A stretch of 23,764 bases of DNA from positions 1 through 23,764 of the IMG/VR virus record IMGVR_UViG_3300020214_000124; one strand, 5' to 3'. The notes beneath the pieces were generated by a model. The model had not been told where the DNA came from. It was given only the letters and a program-made list of their open reading frames with translations, and searched no databases. This document shows positions 11,790 to 19,344 of the stretch, one piece after another. Source of the DNA: a virus. A program made the position numbers and the translations under genes. Each line of letters opens with the position of its first letter. The first letter of the stretch is position 1.

Positions 11790-12461
11790 TTACTTTTCTT
11801 TTTCAGAATCGTCGACCGCTTCATCTTCGTCGCCTTCATCTTCGTCGCCTTCATCTTCGTCGCCTTCATCTTCGTCATCTTCTTCAGATTTGCACATATT
11901 TTCGATGGTTGCACAAAGGTAATCGCAGCATTCAGCTTTTTCCATTTCCATTTTTTCGCAAACTTCGTCTAGAATGTCTTTGAGCTGATCTCCGAATTCT
12001 TCCATAAGCATTTTGAGTTTTTCCTCGTCTAGCTCAGGTTTTTCGTCGATCGGCATGTCGTCTGCTGGCATGTCGTCTGCTGGCATATCATTGTCAGCAT
12101 CCATCATTTCTTCAAATTTTTCATTAACGAATTCTTCAAAACGGAAAAGTCTACCTTCCTCAATCTTGGTTGAAGTTTTTGTTACTGGAGTAGAGTACAT
12201 CGGATCAAATGGTTTTTTTCTAGCTTGTCTGGACACAACGTCTCGTGAGACTGCCTTCCAAGTGGTATCATAGTTATTTATAGTTTTACCTCCTTCAAAA
12301 TCTGCATTTCTATCAACTACTCGCTGATAGCCTTTTAGAAAGTCTCTTTTAGACTTATCAAAGTCAATTTTTTCTTTTGGTCCGCCAAAGCCAGGCTTTG
12401 AAAGATCCATCCAATTATTCATTTTAGGATTTCTTCTAGATTTTGCATTAAACATATCCAT
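11790..12461 (-). CDS. Late protein with acidic repeat tail and capsid-targeting-like motif
   Basis: A 223-residue protein, last gene of the late block. The N-terminal 87 residues are polar and basic (NAKSRRNPKMNNWMD). The segment RFEEFVNEKFEEMM at 107-120 resembles the T4 capsid-targeting signal (YQEFIAE). A DMPADDMPADDMPIDE repeat follows at about 125-140, then a helical Glu/Lys/Met region with four cysteines, then an acidic tail built on GDEDE repeats. A late-promoter-like TATAAATAACT lies inside the gene, ahead of an in-frame Met at residue 88, so a shorter 136-residue form is possible. Family unknown. The acidic, repeat-rich, motif-bearing layout fits an internal head or assembly protein, but that is inference. 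The start could also be the second ATG two codons in. Confidence 0.75.
   Translation of the reverse strand: MDMFNAKSRRNPKMNNWMDLSKPGFGGPKEKIDFDKSKRDFLKGYQRVVDRNADFEGGKTINNYDTTWKAVSRDVVSRQARKKPFDPMYSTPVTKTSTKIEEGRLFRFEEFVNEKFEEMMDADNDMPADDMPADDMPIDEKPELDEEKLKMLMEEFGDQLKDILDEVCEKMEMEKAECCDYLCATIENMCKSEEDDEDEGDEDEGDEDEGDEDEAVDDSEKEK
11821..11880. repeat. 15-bp tandem repeat encoding GDEDE
   Basis: The unit TCATCTTCGTCGCCT occurs three times exactly (11821-11835, 11836-11850, 11851-11865), with a fourth, diverged copy at 11866-11880. Being a multiple of three, it lengthens the acidic tail without changing frame, so copy number can vary between isolates by slippage. Confidence 0.9.
12052..12096. 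repeat. 15-bp tandem repeat encoding DMPAD
   Basis: The unit GGCATGTCGTCTGCT occurs twice exactly (12052-12066 and 12067-12081), with a diverged third unit to 12096. It is in frame with the acidic-tailed late protein, which thus carries two independent in-frame repeat tracts. Confidence 0.8.
12275..12282 (-). promoter_or_regulatory. Intragenic late-promoter-like box (TATAAATA)
   Basis: On the minus strand the sequence is TATAAATAACT, identical over 11 bases to the box at 234-241. It lies inside the 11790-12461 gene, where it encodes the residues TINNY. The first downstream in-frame ATG is at 12200, 74 bases away, longer than the 20-26 bases at most other boxes. It may be functional or a coincidence of codons. 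Confidence 0.45.
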
Positions 12462-13923: not shown

Positions 13924-14247
13924 TTAACCAACAGTTTTTTCACCTTTAAACTCTTTGCCTACATTTGCTTTTTTCTTAGTTGGGTCAACTGGTTTATAAT
14001 TTGCCCAAATTTCATTATAAATTCTGCAAGAGGCTCCCATGAAGTTGACAATACCAATATATTTCTTACGGTCTTCTCCCTTCATTTTTGTGATTTTCTT
14101 ACCAATAGCTCTTGCATCGTCCAGATCAAGTTCCTCTTCCTCAGTCTTACCGACTAAATCTTTTAAAGAGTTTTCTTGAACATATGATGAAAAGCTCTCA
14201 GCAACATAGCCCATTTCAAGGATGCTATTTGAGGTAGAGTTTTTCAT
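13924..14247 (-). CDS. Small unknown late protein with capsid-targeting-like motif near N-terminus
   Basis: A 107-residue protein starting at ATG 14247, ten bases after the stop of the upstream repeat protein, so the two are probably read from the same late promoter. The N-terminal part contains SFSSYVQENSL; residues 19-25 (FSSYVQE) match the pattern [YF]xx[YF][IV]xE seen in T4 capsid-targeting sequences. The middle is acidic then basic (KTEEEELDLDDARAIGKK), and the C-terminus is Lys/Gly-rich. No enzyme motif is visible. It may be an internal or minor head protein. Family unknown. Confidence 0.72.
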   Translation of the reverse strand: MKNSTSNSILEMGYVAESFSSYVQENSLKDLVGKTEEEELDLDDARAIGKKITKMKGEDRKKYIGIVNFMGASCRIYNEIWANYKPVDPTKKKANVGKEFKGEKTVG

Positions 14248-14257
14248 TTGTCAATAA

Positions 14258-14620
14258 TTACTTTTTAGGCATTTTCGCCATTGACGAATCAACTGACTTC
14301 TTTGAAACAGAACCTTTAACTACAAGGTTTGCAAACTTAGAATCTACTGATTTGCTGGGAACTGAACCTTTTGCAGTTGGAAGAGATGCAGCGCCAGTTT
14401 TAACTGACTTTGAAGGTACTGAACCCTTTGCTTTAGGAAGCTCTGCCATTCCAGGATCAACTGGTTTGCTCACGTTTTTACCCTTAGCTTCTAATTTTGC
14501 CATTCCAGGATCAACTGATTTACTGGGAACTGAACCTTTCTCTTTAGGAAGAGCTGCCAGGTCTTGATTCGCTTTTTCAGCAATGTATTCGAAATAATTT
14601 AATACAGGCTTAGTGCTCAT
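14258..14620 (-). CDS. Small internal-head-protein candidate with capsid-targeting motif and repeats
   Basis: A 120-residue protein. The frame is open further upstream, but that stretch contains the previous gene's terminator and the late promoter, so the ATG at 14618-14620 (MSTKPVLNYFEYIAEKAN) is the real start. It sits 26 bases below the promoter. Residues 9-15 (YFEYIAE) closely match the T4 internal-protein targeting sequence MKTYQEFIAE, with cleavage expected after E15. The rest is five or six imperfect repeats of about 16-22 residues around KGSVPSKSVD and PGMA, basic and low-complexity, as expected for a DNA-associated protein packed in the capsid. It lies directly after the major capsid gene. 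The function is inferred from the motif and context. Confidence 0.75.
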   Translation of the reverse strand: MSTKPVLNYFEYIAEKANQDLAALPKEKGSVPSKSVDPGMAKLEAKGKNVSKPVDPGMAELPKAKGSVPSKSVKTGAASLPTAKGSVPSKSVDSKFANLVVKGSVSKKSVDSSMAKMPKK

Positions 14621-14646
14621 GTGAATTATATTTTTTTCTGTAGAGT

Positions 14647-14654
14647 TATTTATT
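14647..14654 (-). promoter_or_regulatory. Late promoter for the small repeat protein (AATAAATA)
   Basis: The minus-strand sequence is AATAAATAACT. It lies immediately downstream of the capsid gene terminator and 26 bases upstream of the ATG at 14620. This placement decides the start of that gene. Confidence 0.75.
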
Positions 14655-14722: not shown

Positions 14723-15004
14723 TTACGCTAGAAGACTCGCAACACCATTCACGGTTAGTGTGAAGTATTGAGTTTCAGGATGCCATCCAGCCTCAGTGAT
14801 AGCATATCTTGACTTCATACCGATCTTTGGAGAGAAAGTACCCTCAGAGATAGTTTGAAGAGACTCAGCCATGATGTAAGGAAGGAATTTAACACCTGGT
14901 TCTTCGTCAGCACCTTTACGGCCGACAATGACACGGTTATCTCCGAAGTTCATGTTAGGATCTACGTAGATAGTTAAGCCGTATACTTTACCAGCTGGGT
15001 ACAA
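14723..15004 (-). CDS. 23: Major capsid protein gp23, C-terminal fragment (separated by frameshift)
   Basis: This frame carries the C-terminal end of gp23. The segment KVYGLTIYVDPNMNFGDNR, then VGRKGADEEPGVKFLPY and the FSPKIGMKSRYAI region, corresponds to the conserved end of T4-type capsid proteins. It has no start of its own: the apparent TTG at 15004 is just the Leu codon of GQLYPAGK. The frame is lost because of an exact 85-bp tandem duplication at 15041-15210. Removing one copy joins this fragment to the upstream part as GYVIT-PFNNDLPSSAGQLYPAG without any stop. A strong terminator follows. Confidence 0.88.
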   Translation of the reverse strand: MYPAGKVYGLTIYVDPNMNFGDNRVIVGRKGADEEPGVKFLPYIMAESLQTISEGTFSPKIGMKSRYAITEAGWHPETQYFTLTVNGVASLLA

Positions 15005-16370
15005 CTGACCTGCACTTGAAGGAAGATCGTTGTTGAAAGGAGTGATTACATAACCGGCTACATCGGCAAGAGCAGAAGCGATACGGCCATTGGTTATTAC
15101 GAAAGTACCTGCACCGAAACGTCCTAGTGATTACATAACCGGCTACATCGGCAAGAGCAGAAGCGATACGGCCATTGGTTATTACGAAAGTACCTGCACC
15201 GAAACGTCCTCTGTGGTAGATTAGGTTAGCGATCTCAAGGATCTTAGTAACTACTCTACGCTGAGCAGATGCAAGAGCCATAGACTCACTAGCACCAGCT
15301 GCAGGAATAGTTAAAGTTCCGAGACCTGAAACACCTTCTACTGTAGCAGCCTTAGCTGCATGCACATCACCAAGCTTAGCAACACGGTCAACCAACCTCT
15401 TGTTGATAGACTGAGCAAGTTCGTTAACTGCTACGTTCTCCAACATTGAGATAACGTCGAAGTTCCATACGCGGTTAAGGTCTTGAATTTGCTCAACAGA
15501 AGCAGAGATTGATACTTGATCGCCTTTTGCTTCTACGAACTTGGTGAACATTCTTAAGCCCATTTGACGGAACTTAGAAACTTCAGCCTCGTCCCTGGTC
15601 ATGCCGAATCCAGATTGTGAATTTGTTTCTCCAAGATAAGGACCATTGAATCCGGTAGTAGCGTAATCAGCATCGGACACGGAAGTGAAACCGGAGATGT
15701 GATTTTCTAGAGCAGATACTAGAGCCACACCAGCAGCACTTGCTGCAATATTTGCAGCAACAGCAGCAGCAGCAACAGTTGTAGTACCATCACTACCTGT
15801 AACTACTTTATAGATTGGGTGACCATCTACTCTTGAGTAACCTACGAAAGTGAAAGTGAAATCACCGCTAGTAGCACCGTTAGTATCAGCAGCAGTACCG
15901 TCAGTAACTTTGATTAAGAACGGCTCGAATTGAGAGTCTACGTTACCGCCTTGGTATACGTAGTCAAGGTAAGGAAGGAATCCTACTGGAGAATCCATAG
16001 GAACAACACCAACTAGGTCGAAACCAATAGTTTTAGCTGCTACTTGGATTGCAACTGGCATAAGTGATGGAAATTTATCACCAGAGCCAGAACCGGTTGT
16101 TTTTACACCAGCTGCAGTGAACGGAGCCATTAAACTGGTTGGAGCGCCGACTGCGCCCATTGTGCCGACAGAACCTGGCTGTTGGAAGAACAAGCCTGGA
16201 GCTACGGCCGCTTCATTAATAGCGCCAGCATTTTCGAAGATTGCGTGGTTGTGAGCATAGTCAACTAACCAAGGGCGCTGATTTAGATCTACGCCATAAC
16301 CTTCTAAAACTGGAGCCCAAGTCTCACGTACGCTTGCGTCGTTGAGTCTTTTGAAAATTTTAGTTGCCAT
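14988..16370 (-). CDS. 23: Major capsid protein gp23, N-terminal part ending in a frameshift
   Basis: The T4-type major head protein. The first residues MATKIFKRLNDASVRETWAP and the WLVDYAHNHAIFENAGAINEAA region match the gp23 prosequence. Cleavage by the prohead protease is expected after INE at residues 51-53. The hexamer-forming body runs to GYVIT. From there the reading frame enters the second copy of an 85-bp duplication in the wrong frame and ends in a nonsense tail rich in Cys, Arg and Ser (CRYFRNNQWPYRFCSCRC). With one copy removed the protein is 520 residues, against 521 in T4 gp23. As written it could not make a normal capsid. No late promoter lies just upstream, so expression presumably comes through from the protease-scaffold gene. 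Confidence 0.92.
   Translation of the reverse strand: MATKIFKRLNDASVRETWAPVLEGYGVDLNQRPWLVDYAHNHAIFENAGAINEAAVAPGLFFQQPGSVGTMGAVGAPTSLMAPFTAAGVKTTGSGSGDKFPSLMPVAIQVAAKTIGFDLVGVVPMDSPVGFLPYLDYVYQGGNVDSQFEPFLIKVTDGTAADTNGATSGDFTFTFVGYSRVDGHPIYKVVTGSDGTTTVAAAAVAANIAASAAGVALVSALENHISGFTSVSDADYATTGFNGPYLGETNSQSGFGMTRDEAEVSKFRQMGLRMFTKFVEAKGDQVSISASVEQIQDLNRVWNFDVISMLENVAVNELAQSINKRLVDRVAKLGDVHAAKAATVEGVSGLGTLTIPAAGASESMALASAQRRVVTKILEIANLIYHRGRFGAGTFVITNGRIASALADVAGYVITRTFRCRYFRNNQWPYRFCSCRCSRLCNHSFQQRSSFKCRSVVPSW
15041..15210. repeat. Exact 85-bp tandem duplication in the capsid gene
   Basis: Bases 15041-15125 and 15126-15210 are identical over all 85 positions and directly adjacent. The flanking bases differ on both sides, so the unit is exactly 85. 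As 85 is not a multiple of three it shifts the frame by one. Confidence 0.97.
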
Positions 16371-16388: not shown

Positions 16389-18362
16389 TTAATTTTTTGC
16401 TCTACGTTTTAGAGCGTCAAGATAGCCGTTTGAGTAACCTCTTAGCCTTTCATTGACTTTATTTAACGAGACGTAGCCTTCTGAACCTTGGCTTTCGTTA
16501 ATTTTTTCTGAATTTGATTTTTCAATCACAATTCTCTCATGAATTCCGCGAAGATCGCGAGAATCCCAGAAAGATTTAACTTGATATGCATTATTTAATT
16601 GGAAGTTATGTGCTTGTGCTGCAATCCAATTTCTTTCTCCATCTGTCATACTTTTAAATACTTCTTTGTATTTTTCTGGCATAAATCTCACATATTTAGG
16701 AGTGTTTTCTTCCTGCTTATTAAGAACTGCTTCAATTAAATTAATAACTTCAGCTTCTGTGAAATAAACAGCTCCTCTTAGAGTTTCTACGATTGCCGTC
16801 TTAGTCTCTTGGTCTAATGAGAAAAATTTCTGCTTATTATTTTCGCTTAGAAGTTTTAAGAATGGATATCTATTTTCTAAAACTGAATTAGCTGAGTTAG
16901 ATTTAATGTGGCCTATAATTCCGTCAACGGCTTCGACTAATTCGTCAACACCAGATTCTTCACTTACCTCATATGTAACTCCTTCGTTTAAGGTCTTAAC
17001 ATCAGCTAAGAGCTTGCGAGCAGAAACTGCTGAACGTGGAGTAAGGTTTTCATTCAAGGTTTCCGCTAAATATTCAGAATATTTAATTCCTTTTTCTAGA
17101 TTTTCACCTAAATAATCTGCATATTTAATAGCAGCTTCTAGGTTTTCACCAATATACTCAGAATAACGAATTCCTTTTTCAGCTTGTTCAGCAACATACT
17201 CAGCATACTGAATTCCTTTATCTGCTTGTTCAGCAACGTATTCGGTATACTTGATGTTTTTTTCAACGTGTTCAGCAACATATTCTGAATAGTTAATAGA
17301 TTGATTTACCTTTTCTCCAACATAATCAGAGTACTGAATGTTTTGTTCAGTTTTTTCTGCTAAGTAATCTGAGTAATCGATCACGTTATTCACTTTTTCA
17401 GCTACGTGCTCAGTATATTTAATTCCGCTATTCAACATAGTTGATAGGTAGTTAGTATACTCAACTAGCTTTTCCATTTCGCCAGCTAGATAGTTAACGT
17501 AGCTGATCATTTTTGGAGATTCGTTAGAACTTTCAGATAGAGCAACGATGCCCTTATTGTTCTTTTTAATGCTTTCTTGAAGAGCCTCGAACTTTTTCTT
17601 AACTAGCTCAGAATACTGATTAAGTTCTTCTCTACTTACAAACTCATTTGCCATTTGTTTGTTGTTATTTTGAGTCGGTGTGTTCATTTCTGAATTATTT
17701 ATCCTATAGACCTTTACAGAATCCTCGAAATTGAAATTTTCTGAAATATCCATAAGTTCATTAGTAATAGATGTCTGCTTTAATAGATCTAGCGATTCAA
17801 ATACATTAGTAAACTGTGTTTGCAGTCCCTCGTTAACAGATTTCTGTAAAATTGCTTGCGAGAAACCTGGCTCAGCAACTAGATCGTATGTAAAAATTCT
17901 ATGAAGTTTAACTTTACCTTCATTCATTACTTGGCCGGCCGCTCTTGATGAACAGGAAATTGTGCAACCCGATTCAACTAGGGTTTTTGCAATTTGGCCA
18001 GCTGGTGTATTTAAGATACGTAACTTAATTTTTACTGAATTAGATCCCTGATCATAATTTAATTCTTCAACTACGTGTGATACGTTCTTAAGAGACACGT
18101 CAAAACTCTGTGGGTGATCTAGTTCGCCAAATAATTGGCCCTTTGAAATTTTTTCCTGCAAATAAGACAGATGGGGTAGATACTCCTCTTTCTCATAAAC
18201 TCGGTTGTTGTTGTTCTTAACTCCGAATATTGCAGCAGTACCTTCCAAAACAATGTCTCCATTATTATTTGATACTGACAAGCCTTCATTGACTTTCTCA
18301 ATGATAAAGACTTGATTCTGAGTTGGAACCGCAGTGCTCAAATTGATAAGATTAGTATCCAC
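16389..18362 (-). CDS. Fused prohead protease (gp21-like) and scaffold (gp22-like)
   Basis: A 657-residue protein with a GTG start at 18360-18362, 20 bases below a perfect TATAAATA. Residues 1 to about 175 are a gp21/U9-type serine protease: GELDHP (79-84, His83), SCSSRAAG (136-143, catalytic Ser at 138 or 139) and FTYDLVAEPGF (157-167). Residues 237-657 are a scaffold with a coiled-coil lead-in (REELNQYSELVKKKFEAL) and eleven consecutive 14-residue repeats at 288-441 of the form YxxYxxExxxxxIx, then a helical C-terminal region. T4 makes these as separate proteins of 212 and 269 residues. The protease part ends near residue 225, as gp21 would, and a late-promoter-like box plus Met codons at 226 and 237 follow. 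Scaffold alone may thus also be made. The scaffold shapes the prohead; the protease then degrades it and trims gp23. Confidence 0.88.
   Translation of the reverse strand: MDTNLINLSTAVPTQNQVFIIEKVNEGLSVSNNNGDIVLEGTAAIFGVKNNNNRVYEKEEYLPHLSYLQEKISKGQLFGELDHPQSFDVSLKNVSHVVEELNYDQGSNSVKIKLRILNTPAGQIAKTLVESGCTISCSSRAAGQVMNEGKVKLHRIFTYDLVAEPGFSQAILQKSVNEGLQTQFTNVFESLDLLKQTSITNELMDISENFNFEDSVKVYRINNSEMNTPTQNNNKQMANEFVSREELNQYSELVKKKFEALQESIKKNNKGIVALSESSNESPKMISYVNYLAGEMEKLVEYTNYLSTMLNSGIKYTEHVAEKVNNVIDYSDYLAEKTEQNIQYSDYVGEKVNQSINYSEYVAEHVEKNIKYTEYVAEQADKGIQYAEYVAEQAEKGIRYSEYIGENLEAAIKYADYLGENLEKGIKYSEYLAETLNENLTPRSAVSARKLLADVKTLNEGVTYEVSEESGVDELVEAVDGIIGHIKSNSANSVLENRYPFLKLLSENNKQKFFSLDQETKTAIVETLRGAVYFTEAEVINLIEAVLNKQEENTPKYVRFMPEKYKEVFKSMTDGERNWIAAQAHNFQLNNAYQVKSFWDSRDLRGIHERIVIEKSNSEKINESQGSEGYVSLNKVNERLRGYSNGYLDALKRRAKN
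17040..17501 (-). repeat. Eleven 14-residue (42-bp) scaffold repeats
   Basis: Eleven uninterrupted units, for example YSDYLAEKTEQNIQ, YSEYVAEHVEKNIK and YTEYVAEQADKGIQ. Tyr is at position 1 and, in all but one unit, at position 4; most units have an aliphatic residue at 5, Glu at 7 and a hydrophobic residue at 13. Fourteen residues are two heptads, so a continuous helical coiled coil is likely. The DNA copies have diverged, so this is an old repeat. Confidence 0.9.
17696..17703 (-). promoter_or_regulatory. Late-promoter-like box at the protease-scaffold junction (GATAAATA)
   Basis: On the minus strand the sequence is GATAAATAATTC, one base from the T4 consensus. It lies inside the fused gene exactly where the protease part ends. 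In-frame ATG codons follow at 17687 (8 bases on) and 17654 (41 bases on; MANEFVSREEL). The second is the better start for a transcript beginning a few bases past the box. Confidence 0.5.
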
Positions 18363-18382
18363 TAAGTTATTTAAATTTTTAT

Positions 18383-18390
18383 TATTTATA
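18383..18390 (-). promoter_or_regulatory. Late promoter for protease-scaffold gene (TATAAATA)
   Basis: An exact T4 late consensus on the minus strand, 20 bases upstream of the GTG start codon at 18362. The spacing supports the GTG rather than a later ATG as the start. Confidence 0.8.
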
Positions 18391-18429: not shown

Positions 18430-18437
18430 TATTTATT
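18430..18437 (-). promoter_or_regulatory. Second late-promoter candidate upstream of protease-scaffold (AATAAATA)
   Basis: The minus-strand AATAAATA has the same octamer as the boxes before gp19 and the small repeat protein, but is followed by ATGG rather than ACT. It overlaps the stop of the J-domain gene and lies 67 bases above the GTG start, so it would act in tandem with the box at 18383-18390. Confidence 0.4.
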
Positions 18438-19344
18438 AAGGTCTATTTAAAAAATTCACAAAAGTAGATTTCTCTTCATCAGTTAGTTCGGAAATGTCAG
18501 GTTTTAATACATTTAGTTTAAAGACGTAACAGCCTACTGTTCCGTTTTCGAGAATAGTTCCTTGGTCTGGAATGTTTAAGCTAAACTTGGTTAAACTGTT
18601 GCCATTAAATGACCTAATCTTAAATTTCTTTGAGTCGATTGTCTCAAATATAAACTCTTCTGGAAATAGCACATCCTTTAAAGAAATGTCTACCTCTTGA
18701 ATAATGTTGCCATTTTCTAATTCTATTCTTTCAGTTGGCACAACTAGGTTTACAATAAGATCACCAATCAAAAGGTCGGTTCGGCCTTTCCATGGATCTT
18801 CGTATTCCATTGAATTGCCATATCCCTTTATTCTAAGCTGAACCGTATAGAGGCCAGCTCGCTGTTTTACAATAGGAAAATGTCTCTCTCGAATATTAAT
18901 GAATAGGCTGAGTGTTTTTGGCTCCTTTTTAACTGATCCATCCAGTGAAGTCATTGTCTTTTCAACCATAACTTCGAATTTTTCGCCAGTTAAAATAGAG
19001 AGTAGAGAAATTTGATGATTATACATTATTGACAAATTTTGAGTCGATTGCCGCCTACCGAATCCGCCAAAGTCCTTCCATGTTCTAAACTGGTCAGCAT
19101 TAAAATCTTTAAAACCAAATACATCTGCAGCAAATTTAGTTTTCTTAGGCGCGTCATACTCTGCCCGTTTCGTCTCATCACCAAGTACAGAGTATGCTTC
19201 TGCAATTTTTTTAAACTTCTCTGCTCCATCAGGGTTTTTATCTGGATGAAATTTAGTAGCTAGCTTACGATAAGATTTCTTTATTTCTTCTTTACTTGCA
19301 TCTCGCTTGATACCCAATATTTGATAATAATCTTCCAATATCAT
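18436..19344 (-). CDS. DnaJ-like J-domain co-chaperone (class II, no zinc finger)
   Basis: A 302-residue Hsp40-type protein. Residues 1-65 form a full J domain ([20 protein letters not shown], then HPD at 33-35 in [10 protein letters not shown], then the [15 protein letters not shown] end), which stimulates the ATPase of DnaK. A Phe/Gly-containing linker ([20 protein letters not shown]) follows, then two beta-sandwich-like client-binding segments similar to the CbpA/DnaJ C-terminal domain (for example [22 protein letters not shown]). The CxxCxGxG zinc repeats are absent, so it is the CbpA/DnaJB type. It is encoded directly upstream of the prohead protease-scaffold gene, which suggests it brings host DnaK to head or tail assembly; that is inference. 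A poor late box (GGTAAATA) lies about 30 bases upstream. Confidence 0.9.

Follow-up and report, generated by a model that had tools for sequence, protein, structure and literature searches.

A protease-scaffold fusion gene with repeats resembling the T4 capsid targeting sequence in a clade of T4-like jumbo phages

In phages lambda and P2, protease and scaffold are encoded in one frame (C/Nu3 and gpO, respectively), with a nested start in C/Nu3 and release by self-cleavage in gpO; their proteases belong to families that are unrelated or distant. In T4, about 576 copies of the scaffold are found against 72-100 of the protease. The T4 protease gp21 cuts after L/I-X-E (PMC9026906, section 2.5). 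The capsid targeting sequence (CTS) of the T4 proteins IPII and IPIII is MKTYQEFIAE, in which section 2.6 of the same source assigns residues 4 and 7 to targeting and residues 8 and 10 to processing. In herpesviruses, the scaffold-only gene UL26.5, with its own promoter, lies within the protease gene (PMC4498786, in the part available).

How the T4 core takes up internal proteins by means of a ten-residue tag, and what serves as the scaffold of giant phages, both look open in the sections available (PMC9026906, sections 2.5-2.6; PMC5694885); according to the latter, no gp22 counterpart has been confirmed in any giant phage. Here, we describe a locus at which both questions become testable, since its scaffold appears to be made of the tag itself.

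The fusion gene and its relatives

The window is the whole stretch of DNA analysed, 23,764 nucleotides of a viral record (IMG/VR IMGVR_UViG_3300020214_000124, positions 1 to 23,764), and its features are collected in Table 1. A preliminary description, made from the letters of the window, read protease and scaffold as one continuous protein with a scaffold part of about 420 residues. This is borne out on both counts: the plus strand across the gene has many stops and the minus strand is open for 657 codons, a single frame with the protease first. That the coding strand is the minus strand was absent from that description. The gp23-type capsid gene starts 18 nt past the fusion stop codon, so there is no separate scaffold gene between the two. 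A DnaJ-type co-chaperone gene (18436-19344, minus strand) lies directly upstream of the fusion. The capsid gene contains a perfect 2 x 85-bp tandem duplication (15041-15210) that splits its frame into 460 + 93 aa; in the relatives L005, L006 and L025, it is a single frame of 539-556 codons, and the duplication is probably an assembly artefact.

Table 1. Features of the fusion locus and its surroundings (positions in the window)
Feature	Position	Strand	Details and basis
Protease-scaffold fusion gene	16389..18362	-	657 aa, GTG start; ORF and profile matches
Protease domain, residues 22-170	17853..18299	-	His83 at 18114-18116; Ser138-139 at 17946-17951
I206-S207-E208 (L/I-X-E), candidate self-cleavage site between protease and scaffold	17739..17747	-	Invariant in 7 aligned rows
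Internal late-promoter-like element ATAAATAAT, coding for I221-N222-N223	17694..17702	-	Silent constraint, element match
Met237, proposed internal start of scaffold-only product	17652..17654	-	Conservation in relatives
Proposed scaffold-only product, residues 237-657 (421 aa)	16392..17654	-	Deduced
Nine tandem 14-residue CTS-like units, residues 314-439	17046..17423	-	
C-terminal helical domain, residues 490-616	16515..16895	-	Model
Late-promoter-like ATAAATAAT (within GTATAAATAAT) before the fusion's own start	18381..18389	-	
gp23-type major capsid gene	14723..16370	-	Directly downstream of fusion; frame broken by 85-bp tandem duplication
Small repetitive protein, rich in Lys, tagged N-terminally with a CTS-like sequence (MSTKPVLNYFEYIAEK)	14261..14620	-	Late-promoter-like element at 14645-14653
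Next small protein, FSSYVQE near N-terminus	13927..14247	-	Also in relative L020

The N-terminal part of the protein matches Pfam Peptidase_S77 (E 2e-9; PF03420, 37.6 bits against a curated cut-off of 27), PF20034 (37.7 against 23.4) and the PHROG head maturation protease (E 3e-34), which places the prohead protease at about residues 30-180. His83 and Ser138-Ser139, named as catalytic in the preliminary description, indeed align with T4 gp21 and are invariant in 23 sequences. In the AlphaFold2 model, a fairly confident domain (residues 22-165) is followed by a disordered linker (about 166-243), by long helices of low confidence (244-437) and by a helical C-terminal domain; the junction as previously placed (residues 220-240) falls inside the predicted linker. 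The protease model aligns with the T4 gp21 structure (5jbl_B) with Z 19.9 and an rmsd of 2.0 over 149 residues, followed in the fold search by herpesvirus proteases at Z 5-8, under the tool's level of trust. By profile, catalytic residues and modelled fold, this is a peptidase S77 of the T4 gp21 type. Cleavage at the ISE of residues 206-208 is a candidate event suggested by the gp21 rule (PMC9026906, in the part available).

We dropped the scaffold part as a gp22 homologue, as hhalign against the single T4 sequence gave a probability of 0.3%; its putative scaffold role follows from its position between protease and capsid genes and from its predicted helix content. For the fold of the C-terminal domain (model pLDDT 68), the best PDB row had Z 4.3, with nothing above noise, and the only BFVD matches below 0.001 were an uncultured-phage protease (657 aa) and an NIOZ-UU157 protein. 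Elsewhere in the window, the product of 11793-12461 (minus strand) has an internal CTS-like FEEFVNE near residue 107, which many relatives share, and ends in a highly acidic tail reminiscent of T4 gp67; it is possibly a second core protein.

Relatives were sampled from 18 IMG/VR contigs, then from three more scans of up to 80 each, and from phage records, giving 252 protease loci among the matches listed (one contig is present twice, as L072 and L105). The fusion is uninterrupted in 215 of these 252 loci, none of which has a stop codon at the junction; 209 carry the C-terminal signature and six, missed by this loose signature, were called by length (L054, L055, L057-L059 and L063). Two further loci (L010 and L022) are fused and each cut by a contig end, and L084 (740 aa) was set aside because its C-terminal part looks low-complexity. 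Among the same matches, 23 loci are short (contig ends account for L069 and L086, and the rest are PAU and T4-type proteases) and another 11 are either broken or truncated by contig ends; L108 stops at 347 aa, by which point eight repeat motifs have been read. The 211 nt spanning the junction are identical and gap-free in another contig, L002.

The fusion is kept in three branches, A, B (79/80 ORFs over 590 aa) and C (73/73 untruncated ORFs), among the matches listed, and reaches phages of 462-735 kb. The preliminary description knew of no T4-like case and proposed searching related phages for one. Besides the uncultured loci, precedents are found in the huge-phage records LR756500-LR756504 and LR745206 and in two cultured Flavobacteriia phages, Tenacibaculum phage PTm1 (564 aa) and Flavobacterium phage MaF61, so the fusion alone is not new. 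These cultured hosts, together with starts lacking a clear Shine-Dalgarno sequence, make Bacteroidota a reasonable guess for the host. In the protease tree, the fused forms and PAU share one starred set of 17 rows (100/98), with the T4-type separate proteases and L084 outside it, which fits either a fusion before PAU, with a later split, or a fusion after PAU. Two fused genes have no 14-residue repeats: L073 (509 aa) and Lak phage B2 (L102; 586 aa when read with code 15, TAG = Gln). By eye, their C-terminal part resembles that of the window, and Lak has an acidic region in place of the repeats. A bS21 gene, looked for by comparison with bS21 phages (PMC9723584, in the part available), is present in three of nine long contigs, never beside the protease, which is too little to place these phages in that clade. 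We conclude that this is a genuine, selected protease-scaffold fusion in a large clade of T4-like jumbo phages.

A candidate internal start at the junction

The preliminary description raised the idea that an internal start might supply extra scaffold, and comparison of relatives points to Met237 with a late-promoter-like element 48 nt upstream. This residue is kept in 66/66 aligned fused proteins, inside a linker that varies in length and sequence (L073 and Lak L102, whose scaffolds do not align at the junction, are left out of the alignment). A Met just before the conserved scaffold start is also present in 25/25 representatives, drawn from 55 candidates. Of nine Met in the window protein, 237, 309, 561 and 572 are invariant among the representatives, and only the first is in the linker. 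The junction Met recurs in 44/44 distinct anchored junctions in clade B (leaving out L135 and L169, which have no anchor) and 44/44 in clade C; going by local Met frequency, the chance of a Met within 13 residues in one sequence is 0.16 (A), 0.31 (B) and 0.48 (C), and these counts overstate significance because the relatives share descent.

The element itself is under silent constraint. Among the representatives, codon 221 is ATA in 25/25, compared with 373 of 2395 Ile codons gene-wide, codon 222 is AAT in 25/25, and codon 223 is AAT in 21 and AAC in 3. Silent-site homogeneity here ranks 1-3 of 236 windows, and among 56 conserved codon triplets, ATAAATAAT shows the greatest uniformity (21/25). 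Further peaks, as yet unexplained, exist at residues 496-498, 600-606 and 620-626, so the junction peak is the gene's strongest but is not unique; those peaks are possibly signals for the downstream capsid gene. In clade C, the top silent-constraint windows again lie at the junction, which has AGGATATAT in 28/44 distinct junctions, and the gene's own start mostly has TATATATA. Support from clade B is weaker: its top peaks fall in the repeat array, the junction ranks ninth, and NATAAATA, a published cyanophage late promoter (PMC2984593, in the part available), is upstream of the junction in 27/44.

A TATAAATAA stretch precedes the fusion gene in all relatives displayed side by side. Across 25 loci, we counted 117 element sites, of which 31 lie 10-60 nt before a start, 53 within genes on the same strand (including the junction elements), 5 antisense in genes and 28 elsewhere. 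The element is strand-specific and is found 27-29 nt upstream of tail-tube genes and 33-55 nt upstream of genes for tagged candidate cargo; of nine in the window, eight are on the late strand. No Shine-Dalgarno sequence was found before Met237, where the region is A-rich like that at other starts here. Our best reading, drawn from conservation and from the analogy with herpesvirus UL26/UL26.5, is that a scaffold-only product would be expressed from this putative internal promoter.

Scaffold repeats and tagged candidate cargo proteins

Although right about the continuous protein, the preliminary description missed that the scaffold contains a 14-residue repeat built on the capsid-targeting motif. 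The nine units are exactly 14 residues each, with the consensus I-x-Y-[STA]-[ED]-[YH]-[VLI]-[AG]-E-x5, and the autocorrelation at 14 residues is 0.478, whereas 2000 shuffles never exceeded 0.205. In nearly all repeat-bearing loci, the motifs are spaced by multiples of 14; L099 has one interval of 91, and L012 has one complete unit more. Residues Y4, F7, I8 and E10 of the T4 CTS are matched in the units by Y/F/H, Y/H, L/V/I and E. The equivalent positions hold nearly throughout in clades A and B; in clade C, nine proteins with a span called at 22-25 units dilute the position-wise counts. L/I-X-E occurs in 139/237 (A), 375/497 (B) and 507/665 (C) units, and V-X-E in 80, 116 and 67, respectively. 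In the window, five of the nine units have V-x-E and no L/I-x-E, so that a strict gp21 specificity would cut only four.

The same T4-type pattern (aromatic at 4 and 7, aliphatic at 8 and Glu at 10) is found in the units and in single tags at the N-termini of other proteins. Around the gene, 402 ORFs in 32 loci contain 21 N-terminal CTS-like motifs, mostly in orthologues of two or three families, compared with 0.65 in shuffles; the ORFs include some inner-Met readings of the fusion gene, which give no N-terminal match. Three long contigs, two from clade A and one from clade C, encode 9, 12 and 11 other proteins with one N-terminal tag, against 0.62, 0.52 and 0.94 expected. With permuted motifs as the control, and over a narrower position range in which 9, 11 and 11 are observed, all 600 permutations stayed below the observed count in each of the three genomes. 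The fusion gene of G004 has no early ATG and entered the count from an inner Met like any other ORF, with an effect on the 'rest' count of that genome only. Proteins that are otherwise unlike, one of them a NUDIX hydrolase, bear tags such as MKTFSQFINE, MKNLKGFTEFIAE and MKSYTEFLLEKK, and the matches include likely false ones, e.g. thymidylate synthase in G006. In the window, the Lys-rich protein of Table 1 is a candidate internal head protein. For the small protein next to it, the scan counts only the copy in L020, an opposite-strand ORF having displaced that of the window.

In PAU (L101, 638-8322), an N-terminus of the pattern MK[TS]..LYE recurs on several small proteins, among them the annotated scaffold gp152 and two annotated internal capsid proteins. 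It may be a targeting tag that PAU has for itself; if so, gp152 is possibly a cargo protein instead of the scaffold.

Proposed mechanism and comparison with known systems

We propose, with a probability of roughly 0.6 for the model as a whole, that the full-length protease-scaffold would put the protease into the core and that the scaffold-only protein (237-657), made via the internal late promoter and Met237, would supply excess scaffold. The middle of the scaffold would be a chain of 14-residue units, each equivalent to the T4 CTS with its cleavage site, and cargo with a single N-terminal copy would be drawn into the core, packing like one more scaffold unit. On shell closure, protease cuts behind the Glu of every unit would dissolve the core and, at the same time, trim the cargo. 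The boldest part of this proposal, which we consider as likely as not, is that capsid targeting sequences are the building units of a polymeric scaffold, that cargo carries one detached unit and that one kind of cut by the fused protease breaks down the polymer and removes the tag.

Several other explanations have to be weighed. The preliminary description suspected a one-base error that had merged two genes, and the same contig does contain a perfect tandem duplication that breaks the capsid gene; the identical, gap-free junction in L002 and the uninterrupted fusion in 215 of 252 loci among the matches listed refute this, and an assembly or sequencing error is hardly credible. A somewhat doubtful alternative is that the fused protein is the sole scaffold, present at 1:1 with the protease and released by self-cleavage, the Met and the element being incidental or the element serving the capsid gene. 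It draws on the continuous frame, the conserved candidate release site ISE and the fact that the capsid gene has no element directly before it. It has to contend, however, with a Met kept in a variable linker in all branches, 48 nt after the element, and a 1:1 ratio would be a large change from the T4 copy numbers.

The repeats could also be an ordinary coiled coil, with their CTS likeness a convergence of short aromatic and acidic helices, which we find rather doubtful. Fourteen residues make two heptads, the model shows long helices (at low confidence), and E-rich helices are common in scaffolds. Against this, conservation within the unit is among the highest for the aromatics at CTS positions 4 and 7 and for the Glu at 10, and the ordered motif, unlike its 600 permutations, marks the N-termini of unrelated proteins in the same genomes.

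If the scaffold is indeed such a polymer, this would account for protein targeting by a ten-residue tag in T4-like phages and would provide a readable code, predictable from sequence, for what jumbo phages pack and inject, packaged proteins being probably injected. We found no description of a protease-scaffold fusion or a CTS-repeat scaffold in the open literature searched, including the available parts of PMC3185693, PMC7824862 and PMC12363816. What is new here is the conserved Met237 with its internal element, the CTS-like units of the scaffold and the other proteins with such an N-terminal tag; the nested-expression signal and the identity of the scaffold repeat with the cargo tag deserve particular attention.

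Compared with T4, the locus has a homologous protease and the same order of protease, scaffold and major capsid genes, and both scaffolds have L/I-X-E sites. Genes 21 and 22 are separate in T4, whereas here protease and scaffold share one frame, and by eye gp22 has no 14-residue array. The T4 CTS has its targeting and cleavage residues in the order seen here; it is a single N-terminal copy on cargo, whereas here tandem copies also form the scaffold. Among cultured phages, PTm1 (ORF-300) and MaF61 (ORF140) combine the protease and a scaffold-like part in one gene, and no CTS array was seen by eye in their translations, that of MaF61 being cut at the locus end. Sphingomonas phage PAU, a cultured protease relative in the same starred tree set, has its protease (gp151, 246 aa) and annotated scaffold (gp152, 277 aa) as separate genes. 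We know of no CTS array in lambda C/Nu3 or P2 gpO. The proposed nested arrangement closely parallels that of the herpesviruses, where UL26/UL26.5 likewise place the protease N-terminal to the scaffold in one frame and a scaffold-only gene is nested in the same frame; any likeness of the proteases would be at the level of fold only, at scores below the trusted level.
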